Shown: positions 37,455 through 64,000, counted from the first letter of the stretch. The stretch: DNA of 64,000 nucleotides from Sporichthya polymorpha DSM 43042 (GCF_000384115.1 NZ_KB913029.1:5307057-5371056), one strand, 5' to 3'. Notes: generated from the letters alone by a model not told the origin. Numbers and translations: made by a program.

Positions 37455-38165
37455 TCAGGATCCGGACCCTCCGCTCGCGGCCGCCGCGGCCGGCTTGTCG
37501 CCCTTCTTGACCTGCTGCTCGGTCACCTTGACGAACCGGCCCTTCTCCATGACGTACTGCTTGTCGGAGAAGCCGACGGCGACGAGGTGGAACTGTTCCA
37601 CCATGACGACCGACAGACCCTCGTCGCACAGCGCACGCAAAGCGGAGTACAGGCGTTCCGCGATGACCGGGGCGAGGCCGAGGGAGAGCTCGTCGACCAG
37701 GAGCAGTCGCGGGCGGGACATCAGCGCGCGACTGACGGCCAGCATCTGCTGCTCACCGCCGGACAGTGACCCGGCGGCCTGGTTCTGGCGCTCCTTGAGC
37801 CGCGGGAACAGCTCGTAGACGCGCTCGAACTGCTCCTTCATGTTCGGCGTGCTGACGCCGTACGCACCCGTGATCAGGTTCTCCCGCACCGACAACGACG
37901 GGAACACCTGCCGCCCCTCGGGCGAGAGGGCGATGCCCATCCCCACGCGCTTGTGCGCGGGCATGCCCGAGACCTTCTGTCGACGGAAGATGATCTCGCC
38001 CTTGCTCGGCGGGATCGCGCCCAGGATCGTCTTCAGCAGCGTCGACTTGCCCGCGCCGTTGGACCCCAGCACCGAGACCATCTGACCCTGATCGACCGTC
38101 AGATCGATGTCGAACAGCACCGGCAGCCGGCCGTAGCCGGAACCGACACCCTTGAGCTCAAGCAT
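37455..38165 (-). CDS. livF: Branched-chain amino acid-type ABC transporter ATPase (LivF-like)
   Basis: A 236-residue ABC ATPase. Walker A GSNGAGKST is near residue 36, the signature SLSGGEQQMLAVSRAL near 135, and Walker B LLLVDELSLGLAP near 158, where the usual DEP is DEL, a normal trait of LivF proteins. The D-loop and SVVMVEQ match the family. The last 15 residues are an Ala/Gly/Ser tail. The ATG at 38165 overlaps the livG stop by eight bases. It energises import together with LivG. Confidence 0.9.
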   Translation of the reverse strand: MLELKGVGSGYGRLPVLFDIDLTVDQGQMVSVLGSNGAGKSTLLKTILGAIPPSKGEIIFRRQKVSGMPAHKRVGMGIALSPEGRQVFPSLSVRENLITGAYGVSTPNMKEQFERVYELFPRLKERQNQAAGSLSGGEQQMLAVSRALMSRPRLLLVDELSLGLAPVIAERLYSALRALCDEGLSVVMVEQFHLVAVGFSDKQYVMEKGRFVKVTEQQVKKGDKPAAAAASGGSGS

Positions 38166-39171
38166 TCTCGGTGCTCCCTTGCTTCGCGGGCACGCCCTCG
38201 GCCTCGGCCTCGGCGATGACCTCGTCGGCCTCGTCGGCCAGGGTCGGGGCTTCGTTCACGTCGGCGGTCTCGTCCAGGTCGAGGACCGAACCCAGGTACT
38301 CGGCCCGCACGACCGGGTCCGCCGCCACCTCGGCCGGGGATCCCGAGGCCAGCAGCTGACCCTGGTTCAGCACGTAGACGAGGTCGGCGTTCTCCAGCAC
38401 GGCCTTCACGTAGTGCTCGACCAGGATGATCGTCAGACCCAGGTCACGCTGCAGCTGGCGCAGCAGCGCGAACAGGGCGTGGGCGTCGTCGGCGTCCAGA
38501 CCGGCGGCCGGCTCGTCGAGCAGCACGATCGCCGGACCGCACATCAACGACCGGCCGATCTCGATCCGCCGCTGACGACCGAAGTCCAGGTCGGACACCC
38601 GGTCGTGCCAGTGGTCCTTGATGCCGAGCAGGACGCACATGGCGTACGCGGCCTGCTCGGCTCTCTGCTCGGACTTCCGCACCGACCGGAAACCGAGCAA
38701 GGTGGTGATCGGGTTGCCCTTGATCGCCAGGTGCGCCGCGGAGAGCAGGTTCTCGCCCACCGACAGGTCGTGGTTGAGCCGGTTGGCCTGGAACGTGCGT
38801 CCCATGCCCAACTTGGCGCGGTCCCACGGCCGCATGCTCGTGACGTCCTTGCCGAACATCGTGATCGTGCCCGAGTCCGGCACCTTCAGGCCGTTCAGCA
38901 CGTCGAAGCACGTCGACTTGCCCGCACCGTTCGGTCCGAGCAGACCGACGAAGGTCTTCGACGGCGCGGTGATGGTGACGTTCTGAAGGGCCTTCACACC
39001 ACCGAAGGCGATGGAGAGGTTGCTGCCCACCAGGGCATCCCCGCTGTCCCCGCGGTGCGGGGGCAGGAACGCCTCCAGGACCGCGAGCGCCTGGTCGCGC
39101 TCCGGGTCGACGCCGGCTTCGGAGACGATGTGGCCGGCGGAGTGACCGGCTTCCGCAGTTGTGGCACTCAC
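38158..39171 (-). CDS. livG: Branched-chain amino acid-type ABC transporter ATPase (LivG-like)
   Basis: A 337-residue ABC ATPase. The core begins near residue 48 (LVGSNLSIAFGGVKAL), with Walker A GPNGAGKSTC near 76, a signature region SDLDFGRQRRIEIGRSL near 187 and Walker B IVLLDEPAAGLD near 210. The signature is FGRQRR where LivG usually has YGxQRR. An N-terminal extension of about 47 residues and a C-terminal acidic tail of about 45 residues go beyond the usual 255. The GTG start overlaps the livM stop. It pairs with the LivF-like ATPase downstream. Confidence 0.88.
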   Translation of the reverse strand: MSATTAEAGHSAGHIVSEAGVDPERDQALAVLEAFLPPHRGDSGDALVGSNLSIAFGGVKALQNVTITAPSKTFVGLLGPNGAGKSTCFDVLNGLKVPDSGTITMFGKDVTSMRPWDRAKLGMGRTFQANRLNHDLSVGENLLSAAHLAIKGNPITTLLGFRSVRKSEQRAEQAAYAMCVLLGIKDHWHDRVSDLDFGRQRRIEIGRSLMCGPAIVLLDEPAAGLDADDAHALFALLRQLQRDLGLTIILVEHYVKAVLENADLVYVLNQGQLLASGSPAEVAADPVVRAEYLGSVLDLDETADVNEAPTLADEADEVIAEAEAEGVPAKQGSTENA

Positions 39172-40463
39172 TTGGACTCCGATCCCGCCGTCACCGGCAC
39201 CTTGGCTTCCGGACGAGGTGGCTTCGCCGCCGCCCCGCCACCTGTCGAGGAGTTCCGTCCCTGGGCTCTCGCCGCCTTGCGCTTGGCGCGCGCACGCGTG
39301 TCGAAGATGTCGGAGACGAAGCCGCCGGCGCCGCGTGGGCCGAGGAGGATGCCGATCGCGAGGCCGAGACCGCCGAGCAGGTAGCCGTTCAGCTCGATGT
39401 CGATCTCGGCGAGCAGGAGCGGGGCGAGGCGGAACAGCAACGCCACCGCGAGCACGGCCGTGAGCGACTCGAACCCGGCCATGATCGGGATCGAGAGGTA
39501 GAACAGCGAGTTGAACGAGTTGAATTCCAGTACGCCCGGTGGTGTGCCGTAGAGCGGCGCCAGCAGGGCACCGCCGAGGCCGGCGAAGCCACCCGCGATC
39601 GCGAACGCCGCGACCTTGTACTTCCACGGTGAGACACCCACCGCGGCGGCCGCCGCGGGGTCGACGCCGACCATGATCATCGAGCGGCCGAACCGCGAGT
39701 GGCGGAACCGGTGCAGGAAGTACATCGAGACGAACAAGAACGCCAGGATGAAGTAGTACATCCGGTCGTCCGCCGAGAGCGTCGCGTTGCACGGCTGCGC
39801 GCAGTTCAGGCTTGCGCCGAAGATCTCCGGCCGCGGAGTCTCGAGCGGGCTCAGGCCACCGGTGAGGGCAGCCTCGGTGAACAGCGAGTTCTCGATGAGG
39901 AACTGCAGAGACAGCGTCAGAACGATGACGTAGACGCCGGAGAGGCGCATCGCGACCAGCGACACGAGCACCGACACGACCACCGCGAACCCGATGCCCC
40001 AAAGCATCGCGAGCGGGAACGCGAGGTCGGTGTACAGCCACCGCGGCAGGTCCACGACCGGGATGTCCCAGACGCTGCCGTCGAACTCCCGGGCGGCGAA
40101 GCCGGAGATGTAGCACGCCGCGCCGGTGATGCCCGCCTGTGCCAGCGAGATCTCGCGGCCCCACCCGACCACGACCAGCAGCCCGAGGGCGGAGATCGCG
40201 AGGACGAGACCGGTGGTGACGTTGTAGACCCAGCTGTCGGTGCCGATCAGCGGGTAGATCGCCAGCATCGCGAACAGCACGAGCAACCCCGGGTGGATCC
40301 CGAGGAAGCCGTGCACCTTGTCGACCGGGTTCGACCCGGCCCCGCCGACCCGCGGCGGGACGGCGATACGTGGACCGGAGCCGTTGGCCGACGGAGCAAC
40401 CTTGGTGGTGTGCGCGGTCTTCGTCGTCTTCGGTTCTGTCTTCTTCGACTTGCCCTGTGCCAT
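39168..40463 (-). CDS. livM: Branched-chain amino acid-type ABC transporter permease (LivM-like)
   Basis: A 431-residue permease with about nine hydrophobic helices between residues 60 and 385 and the LivM motif GREISLAQAGITGAACYISG near 105. A basic N-terminal tail (KSKKTEPKTTKTA) and a Lys/Arg/Ala-rich C-terminal tail extend the typical core of about 320. The ATG at 40463 has AGGAG nine bases upstream; the in-frame ATG at 40469 sits too close to it. It lies 60 bases after livH. Confidence 0.88.
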   Translation of the reverse strand: MAQGKSKKTEPKTTKTAHTTKVAPSANGSGPRIAVPPRVGGAGSNPVDKVHGFLGIHPGLLVLFAMLAIYPLIGTDSWVYNVTTGLVLAISALGLLVVVGWGREISLAQAGITGAACYISGFAAREFDGSVWDIPVVDLPRWLYTDLAFPLAMLWGIGFAVVVSVLVSLVAMRLSGVYVIVLTLSLQFLIENSLFTEAALTGGLSPLETPRPEIFGASLNCAQPCNATLSADDRMYYFILAFLFVSMYFLHRFRHSRFGRSMIMVGVDPAAAAAVGVSPWKYKVAAFAIAGGFAGLGGALLAPLYGTPPGVLEFNSFNSLFYLSIPIMAGFESLTAVLAVALLFRLAPLLLAEIDIELNGYLLGGLGLAIGILLGPRGAGGFVSDIFDTRARAKRKAARAQGRNSSTGGGAAAKPPRPEAKVPVTAGSESK

Positions 40464-40523
40464 GACCATCTTCTCCTTGCGTGTCGACGATTCGGGTGAG
40501 AGCGCGGAACGTCCGCCTGCAGG

Positions 40524-41534
40524 TCAGTGACCTGCGAGGACGGACGAGCTCTTCTTTCCGAACCGGTCGATGCCGATGACCACGGAGAACAGGATCGCGA
40601 CGACGACGATCTCCTTGACCGCCTTGTCCGGCGTGCCGAAGACGCCGGACTCGATCATCGAGTCGATGACGGCGATGAGCACCGCGCCGGCGAGCGCGAG
40701 CGGGATGCTGGCGAACGCTCCCAACACGCAGACGATCAACGCGCGCAGGAAGATGAACAGGATGCCGGTCGTCTCGGTGCCCACCGGGTTCGCGATGAGG
40801 ATGCCCCCGAGCGCCGCGATGGCGCCGGAGATCGCGTAGACGATGGTGCCGACCTTGCCGATCGGGACTCCGACCAGCTTGCTCGCCTCGACGTTGTCGG
40901 CGACCGCACGGGTGTAGACGCCGAAGCGGGTCCGCTGGAGGAGGATCGCGAAGCCGATCACGACCGCGACGAGGATGATCAACGTCGCCAGCTGGTGGTA
41001 CGACACACGCTGATCGACGGTCCCCCCGGGTGTGGGGAACTCGAACCCGTCCCCGCCGAACGGGCTGGGGGCCTGCTCGCCGGAGGACTTGTTCTTGGTG
41101 AAGATGATGCCGACCATGATCAGCATCAGCGCCAGCGAGAAGTTCGTCAGCGTGACGCGGGGATAGGTCGCCATCCGCGTGCTGGTGACGATCCAGCCGT
41201 AGAAGGCGGCGACCGCGGCGCCCGCGAGCATCAGGCCGAACACCGCCACCCACTTGGGCAGCTCCGGTCGGCCGCCACCCCCACCGCCGTCGTCCAGGCC
41301 GGCGAGGATGTCCTCACCGCCCGAGTAGGTCGGGGTGACGAAGTACCAGTACAGCAGCGCGCCGGAGAGAACGATGCCGCCGTGCACGAACGCGATCGTG
41401 CGACTGATGCGGTAACTGAGGACCAGCGCCACCGCGACGAGGCCGTACAGGCCTGAGGTGGTCACTCCGGCGACGATCGACGGACCGAACAGGCCGCCCT
41501 CGAAGCTGAGTGCTTGTGTTGTCAGCGAATCCAT
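40524..41534 (-). CDS. livH: Branched-chain amino acid-type ABC transporter permease (LivH-like)
   Basis: A 336-residue inner-membrane permease with about eight helices. The LivH start is seen in SIVAGVTTSGLYGLVAVALVLSYR, and RTRFGVYTRAVADNVEASKLVG near 205 is the coupling loop to the ATPases. A Gly-rich insert (DDGGGGGGRPEL) lies between helices 2 and 3. It heads the livHMGF operon, and no substrate-binding protein is in or next to this cluster. The ATG at 41534 gives the normal family N-terminus. Confidence 0.88.
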   Translation of the reverse strand: MDSLTTQALSFEGGLFGPSIVAGVTTSGLYGLVAVALVLSYRISRTIAFVHGGIVLSGALLYWYFVTPTYSGGEDILAGLDDGGGGGGRPELPKWVAVFGLMLAGAAVAAFYGWIVTSTRMATYPRVTLTNFSLALMLIMVGIIFTKNKSSGEQAPSPFGGDGFEFPTPGGTVDQRVSYHQLATLIILVAVVIGFAILLQRTRFGVYTRAVADNVEASKLVGVPIGKVGTIVYAISGAIAALGGILIANPVGTETTGILFIFLRALIVCVLGAFASIPLALAGAVLIAVIDSMIESGVFGTPDKAVKEIVVVAILFSVVIGIDRFGKKSSSVLAGH

Positions 41535-41783
41535 GCGTAATCGCTGCCTTCCCTGCCGCCGGGACGCGGCCAGTTCAGGAGGCACTGCGGACGCGCCAAA
41601 GACGCACCGCGGGGCCCCCACATGTCAGGTAGGTGGCCTTTGCTCCACTCGCGGCGCAACTTCAGGGACGAGCCGAAAGTGGGGCGGACCGGTGCAGTCT
41701 AGACCCAGCGAGTACCCCTCTGGCCAGACCTGACCCCCCGTGTGGGAGAGGAAATCCCCCCGCGGAGATCATTCCGGCAGTCC

Positions 41784-52268: not shown

Positions 52269-53405
52269 TCACAGCCCCAGGGAACGACCGACGATCTCCT
52301 TCATGATCTCGGTGGTGCCGCCGTAGATCGTGCTGACGCGGGCGTCGCGGAAGGCGCGGGCGACCGGGTACTCCTCCATGAACCCGTAGCCGCCGTGGAG
52401 CTGGAGGCACTGGTCGATGACCTTGCGGGAGAGCTCGGTGGTCCACCACTTGGCCTTGGCGGCGTCGGAGGCGGTGAGCTGGCGCTCGGTGTGGTCGGCG
52501 ATGCAGCGGTCGACGTAGGCGCGGGCGACGTCGAGCTCGGTCGCGATCTCGGCGGCGACGAAGCGGCTGTTCTGGAAGCTGCCGATCGGCTGGCCGAACG
52601 CGGTGCGCGTCTTGATGTACTCCAGCGTCTGCTCGAAGATCCGCTCCGCGCGGGCGATCGCGCCGATCGCGATGACCAGTCGCTCCTGCGGCAGGTTGTG
52701 CATCAGGTGGTAGAACCCGCGGTTCAGCTCACCGATGAGGTTCTGCTCCGGGACGCGGACGTCGGTGAACGACAGCTCCGCGGTGTCCTGGGCGTGCAGG
52801 CCGATCTTGTCGAGGTTGCGGCCGCGCTCGAAGCCCGGCATGCCGCGCTCGACGGCGAACAGCGAGATGCCCTTGTGGCCCGCCTCCTTGTCGGTCTTCG
52901 CGACGACGATCACCAGGTCCGAGTGGATGCCGTTGGTGATGAAGGTCTTCGAGCCGTTGATGACCCAGTCGTCGCCGTCCTTGACCGCGGTGGTCTTGAT
53001 GCCCTGCAGGTCGCTGCCGGCGCCGGGCTCGGTCATCGCGATCGCGGTGACGAGGTCGCCGGTGCAGAACCCGGGAAGCCAGCGCTGCTTCTGCTCCTCG
53101 GTGCAGAGTTCGGTCAGGTACGGGCCGCAGACCTCGCTGTGCAGCGGGATGGCGAGGCCCGGCGTCCCCTCGATCTGCTCACAGAGCACCGCGTTGTAGC
53201 GGTAGTCGGTGTTCCCACCGCCGCCGTACTCCTCCGGGACGGACAGGCCGAGCAGCCCCGCGCGACCCGCGGCCCGCCAGGCCTCGCGGTCGACGATCCC
53301 CTCGGTCTCCCATTTTTCGTAGTGCGGGAGGACTTCCTTCGCCACGAACGCCGCGACAGCATCGGCGAAGGCCTGATGCGACTCGTCGAGCAGGGTCCGA
53401 CGCAT
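52269..53405 (-). CDS. Acyl-CoA dehydrogenase
   Basis: A 378-residue FAD-dependent acyl-CoA dehydrogenase introducing the alpha-beta double bond. FAD/substrate motifs are AIAMTEPGAGSD near 129 and HGGYGFMEEYPVAR near 340. The end reads STIYGGTTEIMKEIVGR, so the position that carries the catalytic Glu in medium-chain enzymes is Gly. A Glu in LPQERLVIA near 241 matches the catalytic position of isovaleryl- and long-chain-type enzymes. The ATG at 53405 follows GGGAGGAAG. It is divergent from the tandem-SBP operon with a 77-base gap. Confidence 0.93.
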   Translation of the reverse strand: MRRTLLDESHQAFADAVAAFVAKEVLPHYEKWETEGIVDREAWRAAGRAGLLGLSVPEEYGGGGNTDYRYNAVLCEQIEGTPGLAIPLHSEVCGPYLTELCTEEQKQRWLPGFCTGDLVTAIAMTEPGAGSDLQGIKTTAVKDGDDWVINGSKTFITNGIHSDLVIVVAKTDKEAGHKGISLFAVERGMPGFERGRNLDKIGLHAQDTAELSFTDVRVPEQNLIGELNRGFYHLMHNLPQERLVIAIGAIARAERIFEQTLEYIKTRTAFGQPIGSFQNSRFVAAEIATELDVARAYVDRCIADHTERQLTASDAAKAKWWTTELSRKVIDQCLQLHGGYGFMEEYPVARAFRDARVSTIYGGTTEIMKEIVGRSLGL

Positions 53406-53482: not shown

Positions 53483-54697
53483 ATGGCTTACTTACACCGT
53501 AAGGCTGGCGCCGCCGTCTGCGTGGCACTGGGCCTGGCCGTCGTGCCGCTGATCAGCGCCGACGCCCAGGCTGACGCCACCTACGCCGCGGTCGCCGAGG
53601 CCACCGGTGCGCGCGTCATCTTCACCAACGAGTCCATCCCGCTGAACGTCGCCCCGCAGCTGCAGGGCCCGACGGCGTCGGCGACGCAGAACTCGCTCCA
53701 GCAGTCCGACGCCTACGCCGCGTTCCCCTATCCGGGTGAGGAGGTCGCGGGCCTGCCCGGCGTCGTCGGCGGCGCCGCGAGCGTGCCGCTGCCGGCCTAC
53801 CCGTTCGTCATCTCGACCAGCTTCGGCGACGGCGCGAAGCAGCTCTCCTACCCCGGGATCGAGCTGCGCAGCGAGAGCACCGACACCCTGACCCAGGCCA
53901 CCGCGACGGGCGGCTCGACCGGCGCCGGGGCGACGTCGTCGGCCCGCGTCGCCCGCACCGGCGACGAGGTCGTGGCGAAGGCCGTCACCGACCTGGACGC
54001 GCTGCGCATCGGCGAGACGCTGGTGATCAGCGGCCTGCACGGCCTCGCGACCGCATCGCGCGACTCCGCCGGCAAGCTGACCCGCGTCTCCGAGCTGAGC
54101 TTCACGCGCCTGACGGCCCCGGGCCTGGTGGTCGGCCTGACCAACGGCAAGTTCTCGCTGCAGAACGGCACCGAGGCCCCGACCGAGACCGACGTCCCGG
54201 CCAGTGCGATCGCCGACGCCCTCACGTCCGCCGGGTACCCCACCACGTACCAGGCGCCGAAGGAAACCCCGGACGGGATCATCGGCGCCGGCCTGCAGAT
54301 CATCACCACGCTCCCGGCTCCCCCACCCGGCCTGCCCGGCGGGCTCTCCGGCGAGACGCCCGTGACGGTGTCGATCGGCCTGCTCCGTGCCGAGGTCGCC
54401 TACACGGTCCTGCCCGACACCCCCGCCGCGGCCGCGCCGGGTGGCGTCGACGCCGCGACGGGCGTCCCCGCGGCTCCCGCCGCGCCGGCCCTGCCCGGCA
54501 CCGACTTCGCTGTCGCCCCCGGCAGCGTCCCCGTCCTGGCACCCGCCGCCGGCGCGGTGCCGGGGATCGACCTGGCGTCCCTGTCGGCCACCCGCGCCGC
54601 GATCGGTTCGGACGTCGGCTGGATCTACCTGATGGTTGCCGCCGTGGGTCTGGCCGCGGTCGGTGGCTGCGCCGTTCTGTACCGAGGAGCTCGCTGA
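53483..54697 (+). CDS. Secreted, membrane-anchored protein, first gene of SBP operon
   Basis: A 404-residue protein not recognised. The signal peptide covers about residues 1-32 (VALGLAVVPLISADAQA). A large extracytoplasmic domain follows, with two halves around 35-130 and 130-300 that are rich in Ser, Thr and Ala and lack cysteine. A Pro/Ala-rich stalk spans about 305-370, and a C-terminal helix near 378-398 (IYLMVAAVGLAAVGGCAVLY) ends in RGAR. The architecture suits an anchored surface protein. The ATG at 53483 is the first start after the operator region. Its stop overlaps the next gene as TGATG. Confidence 0.7.
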   Translation: MAYLHRKAGAAVCVALGLAVVPLISADAQADATYAAVAEATGARVIFTNESIPLNVAPQLQGPTASATQNSLQQSDAYAAFPYPGEEVAGLPGVVGGAASVPLPAYPFVISTSFGDGAKQLSYPGIELRSESTDTLTQATATGGSTGAGATSSARVARTGDEVVAKAVTDLDALRIGETLVISGLHGLATASRDSAGKLTRVSELSFTRLTAPGLVVGLTNGKFSLQNGTEAPTETDVPASAIADALTSAGYPTTYQAPKETPDGIIGAGLQIITTLPAPPPGLPGGLSGETPVTVSIGLLRAEVAYTVLPDTPAAAAPGGVDAATGVPAAPAAPALPGTDFAVAPGSVPVLAPAAGAVPGIDLASLSATRAAIGSDVGWIYLMVAAVGLAAVGGCAVLYRGAR

Positions 54698-55089
54698 TGG
54701 CACCCCCGAAGTCGCGTATCGCCCTGGTCGACTGGGCCCGGGTGCAGTGGGACCGTGCCCTCGGCGCCGGGGCCGTGCTGCTCGGCGCGATCCTGCTGAT
54801 CGTCGGCTGGTTCCAGATCAGCGACACCGGCTTCGTCAGCGAGCAGCTCCCCTACCTGGCCTCCGCCGGGCTCGGGGGCGTGTTCCTCCTCGGCTTCGGC
54901 GGGATGCTCTGGCTCTCCGCCGACCTGCGCGACCAGTGGCGCGAACTGCGCGGCATCCGCACCCGGCTCGATGCCGATCCCGCGCCGGCTCCGGTCCCCG
55001 CGGCGGCGGGTGCAACGGCGGCGGGTGCACCGGCGGCGTCAGCGTCCGGCCCGGCCGCGCCGGACGTGACCGGTCGTGACCACGCCTGA
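54697..55089 (+). CDS. Small two-helix membrane protein of the SBP operon
   Basis: A 130-residue protein with two transmembrane helices (about residues 23-42 and 55-75, ALGAGAVLLGAILLIVGW and LASAGLGGVFLLGFGGMLWL). A short coiled stretch follows (DQWRELRGIRTRL), then an Ala/Pro-rich tail. The first loop contains the motif GWFQISDTGF, echoed in the next gene as GWLGVSDTVD, so the two share an ancestor. Function is unknown. The ATG overlaps the previous stop. Confidence 0.72.
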   Translation: MAPPKSRIALVDWARVQWDRALGAGAVLLGAILLIVGWFQISDTGFVSEQLPYLASAGLGGVFLLGFGGMLWLSADLRDQWRELRGIRTRLDADPAPAPVPAAAGATAAGAPAASASGPAAPDVTGRDHA

Positions 55090-55639
55090 GGATTCGACAC
55101 CGATGAGTTCGATCAGCCTCGGCGGGGCGCGCACCCGCGTGGCGCGGGCCGGCACCGCCCGGAGCGCGCCGCTCCACGACGGGCCCGAACCCTGGGCCCG
55201 GCGTGACGTCGTGGTCGTCGCGGTGGTGCTCGCCGTCGCGGTCGCCGGCCTGGTCGTCGGATGGCTCGGCGTCAGCGACACCGTCGACCTCAACTCCCAG
55301 ACCCGCTGGCTCGGGTTCGGCATCACCGCGCTCATCGTCGGCGGCTTCGGCATGGTCTTCTGGCTGCTGCTCGGGCTGCGCCGCGTCGCCGTCCTCCGGC
55401 GCGACGTGCTCGCCGAGCTCGACCGCCGGCACCCCGCGCCCGCGGCGGCCGTCGCCACCGCGCTGGTGACGGACCGTTCGGGATTCGGCACCGCGGCCGG
55501 CATGCGCCGCTACCACGCGCCGGACTGCCAGATGCTCGCCGGCAAGGACGGCGTCCGCTGGGCCGCCGAGGCCGCGCACGTCGAGGCCGGGCTCCGCCCG
55601 TGCCCCATCTGCACAGTCGGGGGGCTCGGTCATGAGTGA
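55076..55639 (+). CDS. Two-helix membrane protein with Ada-like cysteine motif
   Basis: A 187-residue protein with helices near residues 45-65 and 78-98 (VVVVAVVLAVAVAGLVVG, FGITALIVGGFGMVFWLLLG). The C-terminal domain (about 140-183) reads MRRYHAPDCQMLAGKDGVR, then AGLRPCPIC. The YHxPxC and GLRPCxxC pattern resembles the small metal-binding domain of Ada and other 'hard-to-transfer' zinc motifs, with three cysteines available. The GTG start at 55076 overlaps the previous gene by 14 bases. It ends inside the permease start. Zinc binding is inference. Confidence 0.7.
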   Translation: MTTPEDSTPMSSISLGGARTRVARAGTARSAPLHDGPEPWARRDVVVVAVVLAVAVAGLVVGWLGVSDTVDLNSQTRWLGFGITALIVGGFGMVFWLLLGLRRVAVLRRDVLAELDRRHPAPAAAVATALVTDRSGFGTAAGMRRYHAPDCQMLAGKDGVRWAAEAAHVEAGLRPCPICTVGGLGHE

Positions 55640-57548
55640 GTACGTCCCCTACCTCGTCTTCGGGCTGGTCTACGGCTCGATCTACGGCCTGGCCGCGATG
55701 GGCCTGGTGCTCACGTACCGGACCTCGGGTCTGTTCAACTTCGGCCACGGCGCCGTGGGTGCCGGCGCGGCCTACGCGTTCTACGAGCTGCGCGAGCAGC
55801 GGGGCCTGCCGTGGCCCGTCGCCGCGATCCTCGCGATCGGTCTGTTCGGCGCGATCCTCGGTCTCGGTCTCGAACGCATGGCCCGCGGACTGGCCCGGGT
55901 CCCGGTCTCGTACCAGATCGTCGGCACCATCGGTCTGCTGCTGCTGATCCGCGCGACCGCGACCTGGATCTACGGCTCCGAGTACCGCCTCTTCGAACCG
56001 TTCCTGCCGCGCGACGAGGCGTTCACGATCTCCGGGGTCTCCGTCACCTGGGACTCGGTCATCACCCTCGTCTCGGTGACGATTGCCGCCCTCGGGCTCT
56101 ACCTGCTCGTCGAACGGTCCCGCCTCGGCGTGATGATGCGCGCGGTCGTCGACGACCCGGCGTTGCTGGACACAGCCGGCGTTGCGCCCACGCGGGTACG
56201 CCGGCAGGCGTGGCTGATCGGCTCGTGCTTCGCCGCCGCGTCCGGGGTCCTGCTCGCCTCGCAGCAACAGCAACTCGACGCGACCCTGCTCTCGCTGCTG
56301 GTGGTGCAGGCCTTCGGGGCCGCCGCCCTCGGCTCGTTCCGCAGCCTGCCACTGGCGTACGCCGGTGGCCTCGCGATCGGCGTCGCGCAGAAGCTCGTCT
56401 CCAAGGAGACCGCGACCCGGGACTGGCTGCAGGGCCTGGACTTCAACCTGCCGTTCATCGTCCTGTTCATCGCCCTGCTGGTCCTCGGCCGTCGGCGCCT
56501 CGGCGACCTGGGTGCCCAGGTGCGGTCGCGCACCGCGGCGCCGCTCGTGCTCCCCCCGCACCTGCGGTACCTGGTGATGTCGCTGGTCCTGCTCGGTGCC
56601 GTCCTGGTCCCGCACGTCGTGGGCTCACGTCTGCCGGTGTGGATCAACGCGATGAGCCAGGTGCTGCTGTTCCTCTCGCTCGGCCTGCTGGTGCACACGT
56701 CGGGCCAGGTCTCGCTCTGCCACATGGGTCTGGCCGCGGTCGGTGCCGCGGCGTTCGCCCACGCGGTCTCGGGCGGCGTGCCGTGGGGCCTCGCCGTCCT
56801 CTTCGCCGGTCTGGTGGCCGTGCCCGTGGGTGCCGTGGTCGCGATCCCGGCGATCCGGCTGTCCGGGTTGTTCCTCGCCCTCGCGACGTTGGGCTTCGGC
56901 ATCTTCATCGCCCAGTTCTTCTACGTGAAGAGCTACATGTTCGGCCTCGCCGATCTGAAGACCTCCCGTCCGTCCGGTTTCACCTCCGACACCTCGTACT
57001 ACTACCTGCTGCTGATGTTCGCGGTCGCGGGCATCGCTCTGGTCATGGCGATCGAGCGGGCCCGCCTCGGCCGTCTGCTGCGCAGCTTGGGCGACTCCCC
57101 CACGGCGCTGACGACGCTCGGCACCTCGGCCAACGTCACCCGCGTCCTGGTCTTCTGCATCTCGGCGTTCCTGGCCGGCATCAGCGGGGCCCTCTACGCC
57201 GGGCAGTTCGGCTCGGTGTCGGGCACCAGCTTCAACTTCGTCTTCTCGCTCGTTCTGCTCGCCGTGCTCGCCATCTCCGGCCGCACGACCGTCACGTGCG
57301 CGATCGTCGGACCGCTGCTGATGTTCGTGGGCCCGGCGTACAACACCGGCTTCGAGGACGGCTTCCAGGTCCTCTTCGGGCTCGGCGCGATCCTCGCCGC
57401 CGTGTACGCGACGCGGCGCCCGCACCTGCCGTTGCGCACGTGGGCCGCCGAGTACTCGTGGCGCACCGAGAGCACCACCGCGGCGCGCCGGGCCGCGGAT
57501 TCCGAGACCGCCGCCGCGGAGCGCGAACCGGTGGGAGCGTCCCGATGA
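55632..57548 (+). CDS. Fused LivH-LivM type ABC transporter permease
   Basis: A 638-residue permease in which both membrane halves of a branched-chain-amino-acid-type importer are joined. Residues 1-290 form LivH (VYGSIYGLAAMGLVLTYR near 15, RSRLGVMMRAVVDDPALL near 157). Residues 310-600 form LivM (TSGQVSLCHMGLAAVGAAAF near 356, RARLGRLLRSLGDSPTAL near 476). About 17 helices are predicted. The 638-residue length is close to the sum of two separate permeases. No ATPase gene follows in the window. It overlaps its upstream neighbour by eight bases and the first binding-protein gene by four. Confidence 0.88.
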   Translation: MSEYVPYLVFGLVYGSIYGLAAMGLVLTYRTSGLFNFGHGAVGAGAAYAFYELREQRGLPWPVAAILAIGLFGAILGLGLERMARGLARVPVSYQIVGTIGLLLLIRATATWIYGSEYRLFEPFLPRDEAFTISGVSVTWDSVITLVSVTIAALGLYLLVERSRLGVMMRAVVDDPALLDTAGVAPTRVRRQAWLIGSCFAAASGVLLASQQQQLDATLLSLLVVQAFGAAALGSFRSLPLAYAGGLAIGVAQKLVSKETATRDWLQGLDFNLPFIVLFIALLVLGRRRLGDLGAQVRSRTAAPLVLPPHLRYLVMSLVLLGAVLVPHVVGSRLPVWINAMSQVLLFLSLGLLVHTSGQVSLCHMGLAAVGAAAFAHAVSGGVPWGLAVLFAGLVAVPVGAVVAIPAIRLSGLFLALATLGFGIFIAQFFYVKSYMFGLADLKTSRPSGFTSDTSYYYLLLMFAVAGIALVMAIERARLGRLLRSLGDSPTALTTLGTSANVTRVLVFCISAFLAGISGALYAGQFGSVSGTSFNFVFSLVLLAVLAISGRTTVTCAIVGPLLMFVGPAYNTGFEDGFQVLFGLGAILAAVYATRRPHLPLRTWAAEYSWRTESTTAARRAADSETAAAEREPVGASR

Positions 57549-59014
57549 CCGGCCGTTCGGGACGGGCCCGGCTGGTCGCGATCGGCACCTGCGCGGTGCT
57601 CCTGCTCGCCGGCTGTGGCACCCGCGCCAGTGACGCCGAGATCCAGGCCGGCGCGGGTGGCGGCCCGGTGGCGCTGCCCGAGTCCGCGATCGCCGAGTTG
57701 CAGAGCGCACTCCCGGCGGCGGTGCCGGGAGCTCCGGTCGTCGGCCTGCCCTCCGGGGTCGTTCCGCCGTCGGCCCTTCCCGGCGGGGCCGTGCCGGACA
57801 CCGCGCCGGGCACGACCGGGTCGACGGGCACCGCGGACACCCCGGCGGCGGGGCGGCCCGCCGCCGGTCAGGCGCAGGCGTCCTCCGCCGATGCGCCCGC
57901 GGCCACGTGCACGACCAAGGGCGCGCCGGTGAACATCGGCCAGGTCGGCACGTACTCCGGCGTGACCGGAGCGATCTCGGCGCCCGGCCGCACGGCGCTC
58001 GCCGTCTGGGGTCAGGACGTCAACGCCCGCGGCGGGCTGGCCTGCCACCCCGTCACGATCTACAACCGGGACGACGGCGGCGACCCGTCGCGATCAGCCG
58101 CGCTGGTCAAGGAACTCGTCTCCCAGCACAGGATCGTGGCGCTCGTCGGCAGCACGGTCGCGTTCTCCGCGGCCGGGTTCCGCTCCGCCGTCGAGGCCGA
58201 GAAGATCCCCGCCATCGGCGGCGAACTCATCGCTCCGGAGTGGCACGAGAGCCCGTGGATGTTCCCGCAGGGCGCGTCGATCGGCGACCAGATCATCGGC
58301 TTCGTCAAGCAGGGCGTCGAGGGCGGGAAGAAGAAGCTCGCCTACCTGTACTGCGTCGAGGTCGGCGCGTGCACGTACGCGGACAAGATCCTCAAGGGCG
58401 GCGGCGCGAAGCGCGCCGGGGCCGAGATCGTCTACAGCTCCGCGATCTCGATCACCCAGACCGACTTCACCGCCCAGTGCCAGAACGCGAAGAACGCCGG
58501 CGCCGAGCAGATCGCGCTGGGGATGGACGGGTCCGCCATGATCCGGCTGGCGCGCTCGTGCGCGTCGCTGGGTTACAAGCCGCTGTTCTCCGGCGTCGGC
58601 GGCACGATCAGTCCCGGCCAGGCGACCGACACGCTGCTGCGCTCGTTCAACCTGGCGACCGCGACCTCGGTGGCGCCGTGGATGCTCAGCGACACCCCCG
58701 GCCTCAAGATGTACCAGGCCGCGATGAAGCGTTACGCGCCCTCTCTCGCCCCGGACGGCGCCTCGATCTCGGTGTGGACGTCGGCCGCGCTGCTGGAGAA
58801 GGCCGTCGAACTCGGCGGCGACGGCGCGCTCACGACCGCGCGAATCGTTTCGGGGCTCGGGAAGCTGAAGAACGAGACGCTCGGTGGACTGACCGGCCCG
58901 TTGACCTACAAACCCGGACAGGCCAAGGCGCCGAGCAGCGGATGCCTGTTCTACGAACTCCTCACCCCCCAGGGGTGGACGGCACCGCGCGGGAGCAAGC
59001 AGATTTGCATCTGA
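57545..59014 (+). CDS. Substrate-binding lipoprotein 1 of tandem array (leucine-binding type)
   Basis: A 489-residue lipoprotein with lipobox LLLAGC near residue 20, followed by the array hallmark GTRASDAEIQAG. A Pro/Ala/Gly-rich linker (about 30-120) tethers a type I periplasmic-binding domain (about 125-489). Core motifs are IGQVGTYSGVTG, GGLACHPVTI, DDGGDPSRSAALVKEL, ITQTDFTAQCQNAKNAGAEQ and GWTAPRGSKQICI. Eight cysteines outside the lipobox align with those of the next proteins. It probably delivers an amino acid-like or small organic acid ligand to the fused permease; the ligand is unknown. The ATG overlaps the permease stop as ATGA. Confidence 0.87.
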   Translation: MTGRSGRARLVAIGTCAVLLLAGCGTRASDAEIQAGAGGGPVALPESAIAELQSALPAAVPGAPVVGLPSGVVPPSALPGGAVPDTAPGTTGSTGTADTPAAGRPAAGQAQASSADAPAATCTTKGAPVNIGQVGTYSGVTGAISAPGRTALAVWGQDVNARGGLACHPVTIYNRDDGGDPSRSAALVKELVSQHRIVALVGSTVAFSAAGFRSAVEAEKIPAIGGELIAPEWHESPWMFPQGASIGDQIIGFVKQGVEGGKKKLAYLYCVEVGACTYADKILKGGGAKRAGAEIVYSSAISITQTDFTAQCQNAKNAGAEQIALGMDGSAMIRLARSCASLGYKPLFSGVGGTISPGQATDTLLRSFNLATATSVAPWMLSDTPGLKMYQAAMKRYAPSLAPDGASISVWTSAALLEKAVELGGDGALTTARIVSGLGKLKNETLGGLTGPLTYKPGQAKAPSSGCLFYELLTPQGWTAPRGSKQICI

Positions 59015-60492
59015 CCCGCTCCGTTCCGGCGCTGGCCGTCGCCGCCGCGCTCCTGCTCACCGGGTGCGGGACCCGCGCCGACGAGACCGAGATCCGCGCC
59101 GGCGCCGCCGGCTCCGGCACAGTGACGCTCACTTCGGAGTCGCTGGATCAGCTGCGCGCGGCCGCGGCCGGTGGCGGGACCGTTCCCGTCCCCGGGGCAC
59201 CCACGGGCGAGGTCGCCAGCGGCACCGTCGACACCGGGCCGCTCGCGCCCGGGACCACGACCAGCAACGCCACGGCCGGTCAGGACACCACCGGCGCCGC
59301 GGCCGGTCCCGCGAGCCCCGCGACCGGCCGGGCGAATCAGCCCGCCGCGGCGCGGGGCGGTGCGGACGCGGCGTGCACGGAGCAACTTCCCCCGGTCGCC
59401 CTCGGGCAGGTCGGGACCTTCTCCGGCCTCGCCGGGGCCGTCTCGGCCTCGGCCCGGACGACGGCCGCGATCTGGGCGCAGGACGTCAACGCCCGGGGCG
59501 GGCTGGCCTGCCACCCCGTCACGGTCTTCGCGCGTGACGACGGCGGTGACCCGGCCAAGGCCGCGGCGCTGGTGCGCGAGCTGCACGCGCAGAGCAAGGT
59601 GGTCGCGCTGATCAACAGCGTGGTGGTCTTCTCGGTCGCGGGTTTCCGCACCGCGGTCGAGGACCTTCAGCTGCCGGCCGTCGGCGGTGAACTGCTCGCC
59701 CCCGACTGGAACGAGAGCGCGTACATGTTCCCGCAGGGCGCGGGCTTCTTCGACCAGATCGTCGGGTTCCTCAAGCAGGGCGTCGAGATGGGCAAGAAGA
59801 AGATCGCGACGCTGTACTGCGTCGAGGTCACCGCCTGCAGCGAGGGCATCGCCTACGGCCGCTCCGAGGGTGTGAAGAAGGCCGGCGGAGAACTCGTCTA
59901 CGACTCGGCCATCTCCCTGACCCAGACCGACTTCACCGCCCAGTGCCAGAACGCCAAGAACGCGGGGGCCGACCAGCTCGTGCTCGGGATGGACGGCTCG
60001 GCGATGACGCGGGTGGCACGGTCGTGCGCGGCGATCGGCTACAAGCCGCTGCTCTCCGGGATCGGCGGGACGATCAGCTCGGCCCAGGCCGCCGACCCCA
60101 CCCTGCGCTCCTTCGGGCTCGCGGTCGCCAGCGGCGTCGCGCCCTGGACGGAGACCGACACTCCCGGCCTCAAGGCGTACCGCGACGCGTTGCGCCGCTA
60201 CGCGCCCTCCCTGGCGCCGGACGGCCCGTCGATTCAGGCCTGGACCTCCGGGCAGCTGCTGGAGAGGGCCGTGGCCGGGCTCGGCGCGAAGGCGCGCTCC
60301 GGCCCGCTGACGACCGCCCTGATCCTGGACGCCCTCGGGACCGTGAAGAACGAGGACCTCGAAGGGCTGACGGCCGGCGTGACGTTCACCCCGAACCAGA
60401 AGCACGCGGTGTCCAGCGGCTGCATCTACTACGAGCTGCTGACCCCCGACGGGTGGACCGCGCCCAAGGGCAGCCGGAAAGTGTGTGTATGA
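59005..60492 (+). CDS. Substrate-binding lipoprotein 2 of tandem array
   Basis: A 495-residue paralogue of protein 1 with lipobox LLLTGC near residue 18, then GTRADETEIRAG and the binding domain (GQVGTFSGLAGAV, GGLACHPVTVFARDDGGDP, LTQTDFTAQCQNAKNAGADQ, GWTAPKGSRKVCV). All eight shared cysteines are present. It begins with TTG at 59005, 10 bases before the stop of protein 1, with GGGAG upstream; no ATG or GTG is available in this frame before the signal peptide. By eye it is the closest relative of protein 1 within the array. Confidence 0.87.
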   Translation: MHLTRSVPALAVAAALLLTGCGTRADETEIRAGAAGSGTVTLTSESLDQLRAAAAGGGTVPVPGAPTGEVASGTVDTGPLAPGTTTSNATAGQDTTGAAAGPASPATGRANQPAAARGGADAACTEQLPPVALGQVGTFSGLAGAVSASARTTAAIWAQDVNARGGLACHPVTVFARDDGGDPAKAAALVRELHAQSKVVALINSVVVFSVAGFRTAVEDLQLPAVGGELLAPDWNESAYMFPQGAGFFDQIVGFLKQGVEMGKKKIATLYCVEVTACSEGIAYGRSEGVKKAGGELVYDSAISLTQTDFTAQCQNAKNAGADQLVLGMDGSAMTRVARSCAAIGYKPLLSGIGGTISSAQAADPTLRSFGLAVASGVAPWTETDTPGLKAYRDALRRYAPSLAPDGPSIQAWTSGQLLERAVAGLGAKARSGPLTTALILDALGTVKNEDLEGLTAGVTFTPNQKHAVSSGCIYYELLTPDGWTAPKGSRKVCV

Positions 60493-61973
60493 GGCAGCGT
60501 CGTGCCGCGGCTCTGGTGGCCGCGGTGCTCTCCGGCGTTGTCCTGGTCTCCGGGTGCGGAACGCGGGTCGATCCCGCCGAGGTCCGCGCCGGCGCGCAGG
60601 CGAACGGTTCCGTGACGCTGGATTCGGCGGCCCTGGAGCAGCTGCGCGAGGCCGCCGCGGCCGCGACGAACGGTGCGGGAGCCCCGGCCGCCCCCGGCGC
60701 CGCGGGCGACCTGCCCGCCGTCGTCGGCGGCGCGACCGCACCGGGCACGACGGCGGGGGCCTCGGCGACCGCACCGGCGCCCGGCGCGACCACCACCAAG
60801 CCGGGCACGCCCGCCCAGACGCCGACCACCGGGGACGGCGGGAAGTGCGCCACGCAGGGCGCACCGATCGCCCTCGGTCAGGTCGGGACGTTCTCCGGCC
60901 TCGCCGGCCCGATCGCGGGGGACGGGCTGACCGCGATGGCCGTGTGGGCGAAGCAGATCAACGCCCGCGGTGGCCTGGCGTGCCACCCGGTGACGCTCTA
61001 CACCCGTGACGACGGCGGCGACCCGTCGCGTGCGGCCGCGGCGGCGAAGGACCTGATCGGCCGCGGGGTCGTGGCGTTCGTCGGCAACCTCACCGCGCTG
61101 ACGCAGTCCGGCTTCCTGCCTGAGATCAAGAAGAACTGCATCCCGACGGTCGGGATCGACTTCGGCGCCGAGTGGTCGACCGAGCCCTGCCTGTTCCCGC
61201 AGGGCGGGGGCTGGCGCGAGTCGATCGCCGGTCTGGTGCAGCAGGCCGCCGACCGCGGGCACAAGCGACTGGGGCTGCTCTACTGCGTCGAGATCAACAC
61301 CTGCTCCTCGATCGGCAAGGACATCGGGTCGGCCGCCGAGCGGGCGGGCGTCGAGCTCGTCTACTCGTCGTCGATCTCGCTGACGCAGACCGACTACACG
61401 GCCCAGTGCCAGAACGCGAAGAACGCGAAGGTCGAGGAACTCGTCGTCGCGATGGAGGGCTCCGCGATGGCGCGGCTGGCCCGCTCCTGCCTGGCCCTGA
61501 ACTACAAGCCGCTGCTCGTCGGCGCCGCGTGGGCGGTCAACCCGAAGCAGGCCGAGGATCCGCAGGTGCGTGAGCTCGGCCTGGCCGCGGTGAACCCCAA
61601 CGCACCCTGGTTCGCCACCGACCAGCCTGGCCTGCGGGAGTACCAGGCCGCGCTGAAGACCTACGCCCCGCAGATCGTCAGCAGCGGGATGACGCTGCAG
61701 ATGTGGTCGGCGGGGAAGATCCTCGAGGCGGCGGTCGGCCTGCTCGGGCCGACCGCGCGGGACAAGGCGCTGACGGCGGATCAGATCCTGAATGGGTTGA
61801 ACCGGATCAAGAACGAGACCCTCGGTGGGATCACCGCACCGCTGAACTACGCGGAGAAGAACAAGAGCCGCAGCAGCGGCTGCGTCTTCGTGACCCTGCT
61901 GGGCAAGCAGGGCTGGACCGCGCCCAACGGGTCGAAGCCGCTGTGCATCAGCGGTGCGAGGGACCTGCGATGA
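60489..61973 (+). CDS. Substrate-binding lipoprotein 3 of tandem array
   Basis: A 494-residue paralogue with lipobox VLVSGC near residue 23, GTRVDPAEVRAG after it and the domain motifs GQVGTFSGLAGPI, GGLACHPVTLYTRDDGGDP, LTQTDYTAQCQNAKNAKVEE and GWTAPNGSKPLCI. It has the eight shared cysteines plus two more (KKNCIP and TEPCLF near 218-238), the only member with an extra pair. The ligand region (VGIDFGAEWSTEP) differs clearly from members 1 and 2. The start overlaps the previous stop as ATGA. Confidence 0.87.
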   Translation: MRQRRAAALVAAVLSGVVLVSGCGTRVDPAEVRAGAQANGSVTLDSAALEQLREAAAAATNGAGAPAAPGAAGDLPAVVGGATAPGTTAGASATAPAPGATTTKPGTPAQTPTTGDGGKCATQGAPIALGQVGTFSGLAGPIAGDGLTAMAVWAKQINARGGLACHPVTLYTRDDGGDPSRAAAAAKDLIGRGVVAFVGNLTALTQSGFLPEIKKNCIPTVGIDFGAEWSTEPCLFPQGGGWRESIAGLVQQAADRGHKRLGLLYCVEINTCSSIGKDIGSAAERAGVELVYSSSISLTQTDYTAQCQNAKNAKVEELVVAMEGSAMARLARSCLALNYKPLLVGAAWAVNPKQAEDPQVRELGLAAVNPNAPWFATDQPGLREYQAALKTYAPQIVSSGMTLQMWSAGKILEAAVGLLGPTARDKALTADQILNGLNRIKNETLGGITAPLNYAEKNKSRSSGCVFVTLLGKQGWTAPNGSKPLCISGARDLR

Positions 61974-63445
61974 GAGCACGCCGGACCGTCGCCGCGCTCG
62001 CGGCCGCCGTCGCCCTGCTGGCGAGCGGTTGCGGGACCCGCGCGTCCGAGGAGGAGGTCCGCGCCGGCGTCGGCGGCGGGCCCGTCGAGCTCGACCCGGC
62101 GGCCCTCGACCAGCTGCGCGATGCCGGTGCCGGCACCGGTGCCCTCCCCGGCGCGCCGGCACCCGCGCGCGGGCCCGCGGACGCGAGCACCGACGCCGTC
62201 CCCGGCACCGTCCCGCAGTCCGGCTCCGGCACCGCCCCGGGCACCGACTCCCCCGGCACCGCCGGCGCCCCGAGCACGTCGGCGCCCGCCGCAGCGGCCG
62301 GCACCGGCTCGTCGGGCGGCGCCTGCACCAAGCCGGGCGTCCCCCTGCACATCGGTCAGGTCGGCAGCTTCAGCGGCGTCTTCGGGCCGCTGGTCGGTTC
62401 CGCCCGGACCGGATTCGCGGTGTGGATCAAGCACATCAACGCGTCCGGCGGGCTGGCCTGCCACCCGATCGTGCTCCACGCCGTCGATGACGGCGGGGAC
62501 CCGAGCCGTGGGTCCGCCCTGGTCGGCGAGATGGTGAGCAAGTACAACGTCCAGGCCTTCGTGGGAATGGCGTCGATGGCGCTCCCCGGGATGGTCGGTG
62601 CGATCGAGCGGACCAAGCTCCCCGTCGTCGGCGGCGATCTGGTCTCCGACCCGTGGTTCGCGCACCCGCAGTTCTTCCCGCAGGGCGGCGGTCTGCGCGC
62701 GATCGTCGACGGAGCGCTCAAGCAGGCCGTGGCCGACGGTCGGACCGTCCACGGTCTGCTCTACTGCGTCGAGGTCGGGGTCTGCGGATCGGTCGCGAAG
62801 ATGCTGCCCGACCGCGCGAAGGTGGCGGGGGCCAAGGTCGTCTACAGCTCCCCCGTGTCCCTGACCCAGACCGACTTCACCGCGCAGTGCCAGAACGCCA
62901 AGAACGCCGGCGTGCAAGCGTTCGGGATGGCGGTGGACGGGTCCGCGATCGCGCGGGTCGCCCGCTCCTGCGCCGCGCTGAACTACTTCCCGCAGTTCGT
63001 CACCGGCGGCCCGGTCGTCAGCAACGAGCAGGCGAAGGACCCCGGGATCCGCCGGAACACGATGTCGACCGCCAGCGCCAATGCGCCCTGGTTCCGGACC
63101 GACACCCCGGGCCAGCGCGAGTACGCCGAGGCGCTGAAGCGGTACGCCCCCGGCTTCGAGGTGGACGGTCCCTCCATGCTCGCCTGGGCGGCCGGCAAGT
63201 TGTTCCAGGCGGCCGTTGAGCGCCTCGGTGACGCGGCGCGCAACGCCCCGGTGACGAGCGCCGACATCTTCACCGGCCTCGGCAAGATCAGGAACGAGAC
63301 CCTCGACGGGCTGTCACCCCCGATCACCTTCACACCCGGTCAGAAGGCGGCGCCGGACATCCCGTGCGTGTTCTTCGCCCTGGACTCCGAGAAGGGCTGG
63401 ACGGCTCCGAACAGCACGTACGTCTGCACGAAGGTGGACCGATGA
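61970..63445 (+). CDS. Substrate-binding lipoprotein 4 of tandem array
   Basis: A 491-residue paralogue with lipobox LLASGC near residue 19, then GTRASEEEVRAG. The binding domain has GQVGSFSGVFGPLVG, ASGGLACHPIVLHAVDDGGDP, LTQTDFTAQCQNAKNAGVQA and an end GWTAPNSTYVCTK. In place of the ARGGLA found in members 1-3 it has ASGGLA, shared with member 5, so 4 and 5 form a second subgroup. All eight shared cysteines are kept. The start overlaps the previous stop as ATGA. Confidence 0.87.
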   Translation: MRARRTVAALAAAVALLASGCGTRASEEEVRAGVGGGPVELDPAALDQLRDAGAGTGALPGAPAPARGPADASTDAVPGTVPQSGSGTAPGTDSPGTAGAPSTSAPAAAAGTGSSGGACTKPGVPLHIGQVGSFSGVFGPLVGSARTGFAVWIKHINASGGLACHPIVLHAVDDGGDPSRGSALVGEMVSKYNVQAFVGMASMALPGMVGAIERTKLPVVGGDLVSDPWFAHPQFFPQGGGLRAIVDGALKQAVADGRTVHGLLYCVEVGVCGSVAKMLPDRAKVAGAKVVYSSPVSLTQTDFTAQCQNAKNAGVQAFGMAVDGSAIARVARSCAALNYFPQFVTGGPVVSNEQAKDPGIRRNTMSTASANAPWFRTDTPGQREYAEALKRYAPGFEVDGPSMLAWAAGKLFQAAVERLGDAARNAPVTSADIFTGLGKIRNETLDGLSPPITFTPGQKAAPDIPCVFFALDSEKGWTAPNSTYVCTKVDR

Positions 63446-64000
63446 CCGGCCGGCACCCGCTGCGGCGCGCGGCCCTCGCCGTGCTCACCGCCGCCGTGCT
63501 CGTCACCGGGTGCGGAACGCGCGCGAGCGAGGAGGAGGTCCGCGCCGGTGCCGGCGGCGGAGCCGTAACTCTGGATTCGGCGACGCTCGACCAGCTGCGC
63601 GCCGCGACGGCCGGCGGGAACGGTGCCGTGCCGAACGCCCCCGCCGCGGTCGGCCGGGCGCCGGTGTCGGTCGACAGCGGCGATCCGTCCGCGGCGCTCG
63701 TACCCGGTGCGCCCGCAGCCGCGGCCGCGCCGGCGAACGGCACCCGACCGCAGGCCGGGTCCAAGTCCTCCGGCGGGACGGCCGCGGTCAGCTCGGCGAC
63801 GTGCTCCGGCTCCGAGGCGCCCGTGGTGCTCGGCCAGATCGGCAGCTTCAGCGGCGTCCTCGGGGCGATCTTCGCCTCCGCGCGGACGGCCGCCGCGATC
63901 CACGTTCAGCACATCAACGCCTCGGGCGGGCTGGCGTGCCACCCCGTCACCCTGTACGCGGTCGACGACGGCGGCGACCCCAGCCGCGCCGCCTCCCACG
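63442..64000 (+). CDS. Substrate-binding lipoprotein 5 of tandem array, 5' part
   Basis: The first 186 residues of a fifth paralogue; the gene runs off the window. The lipobox is VLVTGC near residue 22, followed by GTRASEEEVRAGAG, a low-complexity linker, and GQIGSFSGVLGAIF, ASGGLACHPVTLYAVDDGGDPSRAAS. It is most like member 4. The ATG overlaps the previous stop as ATGA, so the polycistronic coupling continues. More members or the missing ATPase genes may lie beyond the window. Confidence 0.87.
   Translation, partial: MTGRHPLRRAALAVLTAAVLVTGCGTRASEEEVRAGAGGGAVTLDSATLDQLRAATAGGNGAVPNAPAAVGRAPVSVDSGDPSAALVPGAPAAAAAPANGTRPQAGSKSSGGTAAVSSATCSGSEAPVVLGQIGSFSGVLGAIFASARTAAAIHVQHINASGGLACHPVTLYAVDDGGDPSRAASH

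Follow-up and report, generated by a model that had tools for sequence, protein, structure and literature searches.

The downstream end of a 64,000-nucleotide stretch of DNA from the soil actinomycete Sporichthya polymorpha DSM 43042 (GCF_000384115.1 NZ_KB913029.1:5307057-5371056; hereafter the window), from a genome of one 5.50-Mb contig, raises the question of why a single Liv-type permease is encoded together with a series of paralogous binding lipoproteins and three additional membrane proteins. We consider it fairly probable, from sequence comparisons, that the locus encodes one HAAT-family Liv-type ATP-binding cassette (ABC) importer, which would belong to an undescribed actinobacterial subfamily and could be loaded by five lipid-anchored receptors. 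The substrates of this importer would most likely be several related organic acids. The operon consists of ten genes on the + strand, in the order surf, m1, m2, a LivH-LivM fusion (LivHM), five Peripla_BP_6 lipoproteins (LP1-LP5), and LivF. Coordinates are those of the window or, beyond 64000, window-equivalent:

53483-54697, + strand: surf, a protein with a secreted beta-rich domain, a linker, and a C-terminal membrane helix
54697-55089, + strand: m1, a two-helix membrane hairpin
55076-55639, + strand: m2, a two-helix membrane hairpin with a C-terminal H-x3-C ... C-x2-C motif
55632-57548, + strand: LivHM, a permease fusion of 638 amino acids with two BPD_transp_2 domains
57545-59014, + strand: LP1, a Peripla_BP_6 lipoprotein
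59005-60492, + strand: LP2, a Peripla_BP_6 lipoprotein with a TTG start
60489-61973, + strand: LP3, a Peripla_BP_6 lipoprotein
61970-63445, + strand: LP4, a Peripla_BP_6 lipoprotein
63442-64923, + strand: LP5, a Peripla_BP_6 lipoprotein (its first 559 bases lie inside the window, to 64000)
64937-65632, + strand: LivF-type ATPase, the last gene of the operon, beyond the window end

These open reading frames and starts bear out the initial annotation, which had described a run of genes with overlapping junctions. Overlaps of 1-14 bases were present at each junction from surf to LP5, and a gap of 13 bases separates LP5 from LivF. A search of the + strand inside the operon, with a sigma-70 pattern as the only promoter pattern, revealed no promoter- or terminator-like site. 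Chance or artefact as the source of the gene run was ruled out, as all frames are intact and the run is kept in a second genome. In the Pfam scan, LivHM showed two BPD_transp_2 (PF02653) stretches in one protein and no ATPase domain, and all five lipoproteins matched Peripla_BP_6 with E values from 1e-39 to 1e-42. The same scan gave no match among the operon proteins to SBP_bac_5, the receptor family of Opp/Dpp peptide importers. Each lipoprotein carries a lipobox cysteine followed by GTR, and LP2-LP5 are 45-58% identical to LP1. Within the window, the series of leucine-binding-type lipoproteins had appeared as five consecutive genes, the last one open-ended. The sequence past 64000 established that there are exactly five, with LP5 ending at 64923, and that one LivF-type ATPase closes the array without LivG.

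The five-receptor arrangement is rare. Copy and gene-run counts for this genome refer to the parts of it that were fetched. Among 31 liv-type gene runs there, five substrate-binding proteins (SBPs) occurred in the LP array only, and the remaining runs had 0, 1, or 2. The expectation of one binding protein per importer holds in the related cassettes of other actinobacteria, where a single SBP was found in 18 of the 19 long loci. The combination of several SBP genes with one permease, here five SBPs plus one LivHM, was found in two genomes. The second of these, also of the genus Sporichthya (locus L139), has the ten-gene layout intact, and each LP there is 89-93% identical at the protein level to its counterpart. 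In a third genome of the genus, the array is cut by a contig end within LP2. Between the two species, the ratio of nonsynonymous to synonymous substitution rates (dN/dS) was 0.12-0.21 for the LPs and 0.08 for LivF, with a range of 0.08-0.21 over all genes tested. A class-wide count of SBPs, which scored ~10 candidates per genome, was unfit for ranking genomes by SBP number.

The three membrane proteins encoded upstream of the permease were found to be constant companions of LivHM. The fetched parts of the S. polymorpha genome contain ~20 copies of surf, 24 of m1, and 19 of m2, nearly all of them adjacent to genes for LivHM and an SBP; the cassette as such recurs ~20 times. When public genomes were searched with an m1 alignment, 45 loci were returned, from Sporichthya, Streptomyces, Haloechinothrix, Nocardioides, Actinophytocola, Frankiales, and Acidimicrobiia, a distribution that rules out a cassette restricted to one genus; one metagenome bin labelled Acidobacteria was returned as well. 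For this m1-only scan, co-occurrence was judged in those loci with sufficient sequence: 35 loci extending 3 kb or more beyond m1 for LivHM and m2, and 21 loci with enough flank for surf. LivHM was located at most three genes from m1 in 35/35 loci, m2 was directly next to m1 in 34/35, and surf was present in 21/21. Successive genes in the m1, m2, and LivHM series overlapped or were separated by no more than 10 bases in 60 of 69 cases. The gene order is not fixed, as surf can come after LivF. A further comparison covered 39 genomes: of the 15 with a strong m1 match, 10 contained surf, vs 1 of the 24 others. Random association of the first three genes is ruled out by their adjacency to LivHM in other actinobacteria, and the proposal of a single system withstood this comparison. 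Because of this constant company, we regard the trio as a regular part of an importer subfamily. The statement that the three leading membrane proteins are not standard importer parts is therefore correct for classical Liv systems, but not for the cassette subfamily, in which they are standard. No paper on the surf-m1-m2-LivHM cassette was found in the open-access literature, and the cassette apparently represents an undescribed Liv-type importer subfamily.

The history of the array can be partly read from the sister genus. Its cassettes contain a LivHM that is 76-78% identical to that of Sporichthya, a single SBP, and LivF only. Phylogenetic analysis of 96 SBPs placed LP1-LP5 in one clade (support 0.994) with the SBPs of the sister genus and an orphan SBP of S. 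polymorpha at C1:814958, apart from the remaining SBPs of the genome. Within this clade, LP1 and LP2 grouped with one sister-genus cassette type and LP4 and LP5 with the other. Sporichthya surf (0.98) and LivHM (0.81) grouped with the first type, and the genomic position, beside a conserved gene for a 317-residue protein, matches the second. These split groupings would be accounted for if two cassettes with one receptor each had merged and duplication had followed.

Next, we considered which ligands the receptors may bind. The pocket was defined as 17 positions aligned to the ligand site of E. coli LivJ, at the positions that make ligand contacts in LIVBP structures. Across the five LPs, the predicted pocket columns were 26% identical vs 52% in the core, and only 9 of 20,000 random 17-column sets were as low. 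Between species, the predicted pocket columns were 98% identical vs 94% in the core; when equally variable columns were compared, this conservation was reached by 1133 of 20,000 sets and is thus suggestive only. At the positions of LivJ Thr102 and Glu226, 5/5 LPs carry other residues, and Ser79 is kept in LP4 only. The structural model of LP1 had a mean predicted local distance difference test score (pLDDT) of 82, with 344 residues at 90 or above. Among the solved folds nearest to this model are Rhodopseudomonas palustris SBPs bound to the aromatic acids phenylpyruvate, p-coumarate, and 4-hydroxybenzoate, together with a Thermomonospora SBP that its database entry titles as part of a fatty acid transporter. 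SBPs of the leucine and urea types were likewise among the nearest folds, and the R. palustris Liv-type aromatic-acid SBPs share only 14-19% sequence identity with LP1. Organic acids are favoured over amino acids as LP ligands because the LivJ residues are lost and because of these fold relatives of LP1.

The gene neighbourhoods of SBPs were also compared with control regions, using 434 non-transporter genes near SBP loci vs 370 genes in 20 control stretches. Acyl-CoA dehydrogenases (19 vs 0), cytochromes P450 (21 vs 1), enoyl-CoA hydratases (14 vs 1), thiolases (8 vs 0), and TetR regulators (25 vs 1) were all more frequent near SBP loci. The divergent neighbour of the operon itself is an acyl-CoA dehydrogenase gene (~52269-53400), and a gene of similar length and position is present in two other Sporichthya genomes. 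Across the whole genome, SBPs outnumber permease pairs, and many of them are orphans beside catabolic genes.

How does the operon compare with known systems? It shares with the E. coli Liv/HAAT system (LivJ, LivK, LivHMGF) the BPD_transp_2 pair, a LivF-type ATPase, and Peripla_BP_6 receptors. In E. coli, two receptors, LivJ and LivK, are annotated beside LivHMGF. In contrast, the Sporichthya operon has LivH and LivM fused, no LivG, five receptors, and three extra membrane proteins, and the amino-acid-binding residues of LivJ are not conserved in its LPs. It is a variant of the Liv/HAAT superfamily and not a classical LivHMGF system, and was assigned as such because a LivG and LivF pair is not encoded with the permease. 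Several receptors for one permease have precedents in other families. In Pseudomonas aeruginosa, five paralogous receptors, DppA1-A5, serve the single ABC permease DppBCDF and differ in substrate use; dppA1-A4 are located near dppBCDF, dppA4 apparently shares a transcript with a porin gene, and dppA5 lies at another location (PMC4206461). In contrast to this Dpp system of the dipeptide/Opp family, all five Sporichthya receptors lie in one run with the permease and the ATPase. Borrelia burgdorferi has OppA1-OppA5, three in tandem in the chromosome and two on plasmids, with two permeases, and these receptors diverge in the binding cavity (PMC5736914). The number of receptors and their divergence parallel the Sporichthya array, whereas the system belongs to the Opp family and no counterparts of surf, m1, or m2 are described for it. 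Multi-receptor ABC permeases are therefore already known, and it is the accessory trio and the Liv layout with five receptors in one operon that appear new. The idea that many binding proteins widen the ligand range of one permease receives indirect support from the predicted pocket positions, which are diverged between copies and kept between species, and from these precedents.

The surf, m1, and m2 trio is the least familiar part of the system. The surf protein consists of a secreted beta-rich domain (residues ~31-310), a Pro/Ala-rich linker, and a C-terminal membrane helix (residues ~379-403). Its model (pLDDT 76, predicted template modelling score 0.68) shows the beta-rich domain, a disordered linker, and the C-terminal helix. 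An anchored surface protein had been predicted here; the anchoring stands, through the membrane helix, but the C-terminus lacks an LPXTG motif, which rules out this type of anchor. No Pfam match at E 0.01 was found over 33 surf proteins, and NCBIfam gave no match to surf either. Likewise, m1 and m2 have no family of their own in Pfam or NCBIfam; DUF6233 was weakly touched by two m2 members (best E 0.0012). Both m1 and m2 read as two-helix hairpins with charged tails; for m1, the hydropathy scan flagged just the first helix. The positive-inside rule suggests that the charged tails are probably cytosolic. Conserved motifs of m1 are WDR and SADLRDEW. The C-terminal H-x3-C ... C-x2-C motif of m2 is invariant in 17 copies, which suggests metal binding, and is probably cytosolic. 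The two hairpin proteins are homologous to each other (profile comparison, E 5e-10), and one cassette contains a natural m1-m2 fusion of 301 residues (C1:3466302-3467207). This mutual homology and the natural fusion suggest that m1 and m2 work as a pair.

The genome contains 26 LivG-type C-terminal domains vs ~40 permease pairs. The nearest one belongs to another operon, ~12-16 kb upstream:

~37455-41621, - strand: second liv operon, with LivF at 37455-38165, LivM at 39168-40469, LivH from ~40524, and a LivG domain (PF12399) at C1:5345343

This second operon is classical-looking, with separate LivH and LivM, a LivG, and no SBP in the run, and could lend its LivG to the five-receptor operon.

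In the mechanism that we favour, each LP would catch a different degradable organic acid, such as an aromatic, fatty, or terpenoid/steroid-type carboxylate, and all five would hand their ligands to the same LivHM channel. The paired m1 and m2 hairpins may lie next to this channel, and m2 would extend into the cytosol by way of its putative metal-binding motif. The beta-structure of surf would be positioned outside the membrane near the receptors and might aid capture or hand-over of poorly soluble ligands. The second ATPase subunit would be either a LivG borrowed from another liv cassette or a second LivF in a homodimer. Several observations weigh against this interpretation. The pocket map was transferred by alignment from E. 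coli LivJ, which is only distantly related to the LPs. No PF12399 LivG C-terminal domain was found at the operon, so that the ATPase pair is locally incomplete. No reliable relative emerged from the fold search with surf: the matches were for the most part outer-membrane barrels, their TM-scores (0.10-0.17) and VIA-align Z values (at most 7.1) were below a meaningful level, and no fold is claimed. Finally, the enrichment of catabolic and TetR genes around SBPs, with an odds ratio of ~13 when all the listed families are taken together, is inflated because the family models were built from the SBP neighbourhoods themselves.

Other explanations of the array were weighed against the same data. Some or most of the LPs might serve other liv permeases or the nearby SBP-less liv operon, so that the array would be a shared receptor store. 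This is unlikely, although the genome has 63 Peripla_BP_6 matches vs 80 permease domains (i.e., ~40 LivHM pairs), the upstream - strand operon lacks an SBP and has the LivG type that is missing here, and a close relative of LP4 is the orphan SBP at C1:814958. LP1-LP5 are tied to their own LivHM by overlapping genes, with LivF 13 bases on, this layout is kept in the second species, and nearly all other cassettes have one SBP per permease. Even less probable is a mainly sensory role, in which loaded receptors would signal through surf, m1, and m2, the m2 motif would be the output, and import would be secondary. The two conserved accessory hairpins with an invariant metal-binding-like motif would suit such a role, as would the sensor AmiC, a Peripla_BP_6-like protein found among the matches, the absence of a local ATPase from several cassettes, and the frequent TetR genes nearby. 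However, the fused permease is complete and LivF is intact, and no kinase, cyclase, or regulator is conserved within the cassette.

The least plausible alternative, and in our view a very improbable one, is that the five copies are a recent or redundant dosage amplification without functional divergence. The tandem arrangement, the near-equal spacing, and DNA-level homology in long blocks are what such an amplification would leave. Against it, the copies share ~50% protein identity with one another vs 89-93% between species for each copy, all copies are under purifying selection, and the pocket columns have diverged beyond the rest of the protein.

A single importer with five receptors thus remains the reading that we prefer, and it may be extended. 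It is conceivable, but somewhat doubtful on present comparisons, that the presence of surf, m1, and m2 as obligatory extra subunits marks a new class of ABC importers. In this class, a membrane-anchored beta-domain and a metal-binding hairpin heterodimer would together take ligands of low solubility from interchangeable receptors and deliver them to a fused Liv channel, and the class would have been multiplied genome-wide in actinobacteria to feed lipid, terpenoid, and aromatic catabolism. If the proposed function is correct, amino acids would not be the substrates of an actinobacterial family that is widely annotated as branched-chain amino acid transporters, and three conserved membrane subunits of this family would so far have gone unrecognised. 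How a single ABC channel works with several receptors could then be studied in the five-receptor operon as a natural test case. The cassettes would also map importer to degradable compound genome-wide, in bacteria seemingly equipped for lipid-, steroid-, and terpenoid-like material.

Some further observations concern related loci. In Streptomyces jeddahensis and Streptomyces sp. CB01635, the cassette is followed by a lytic transglycosylase-like gene instead of catabolic genes, which suggests that the Streptomyces cassettes may have another substrate class. In S. polymorpha, the region C1:808000-828000 contains orphan SBPs without a permease nearby, including the one at C1:814958 that shares a clade with LP4. 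At C1:333342-335897, two neighbouring SBP genes, each encoding 381 residues, have identical family scores and represent a tandem duplication that is probably very recent.

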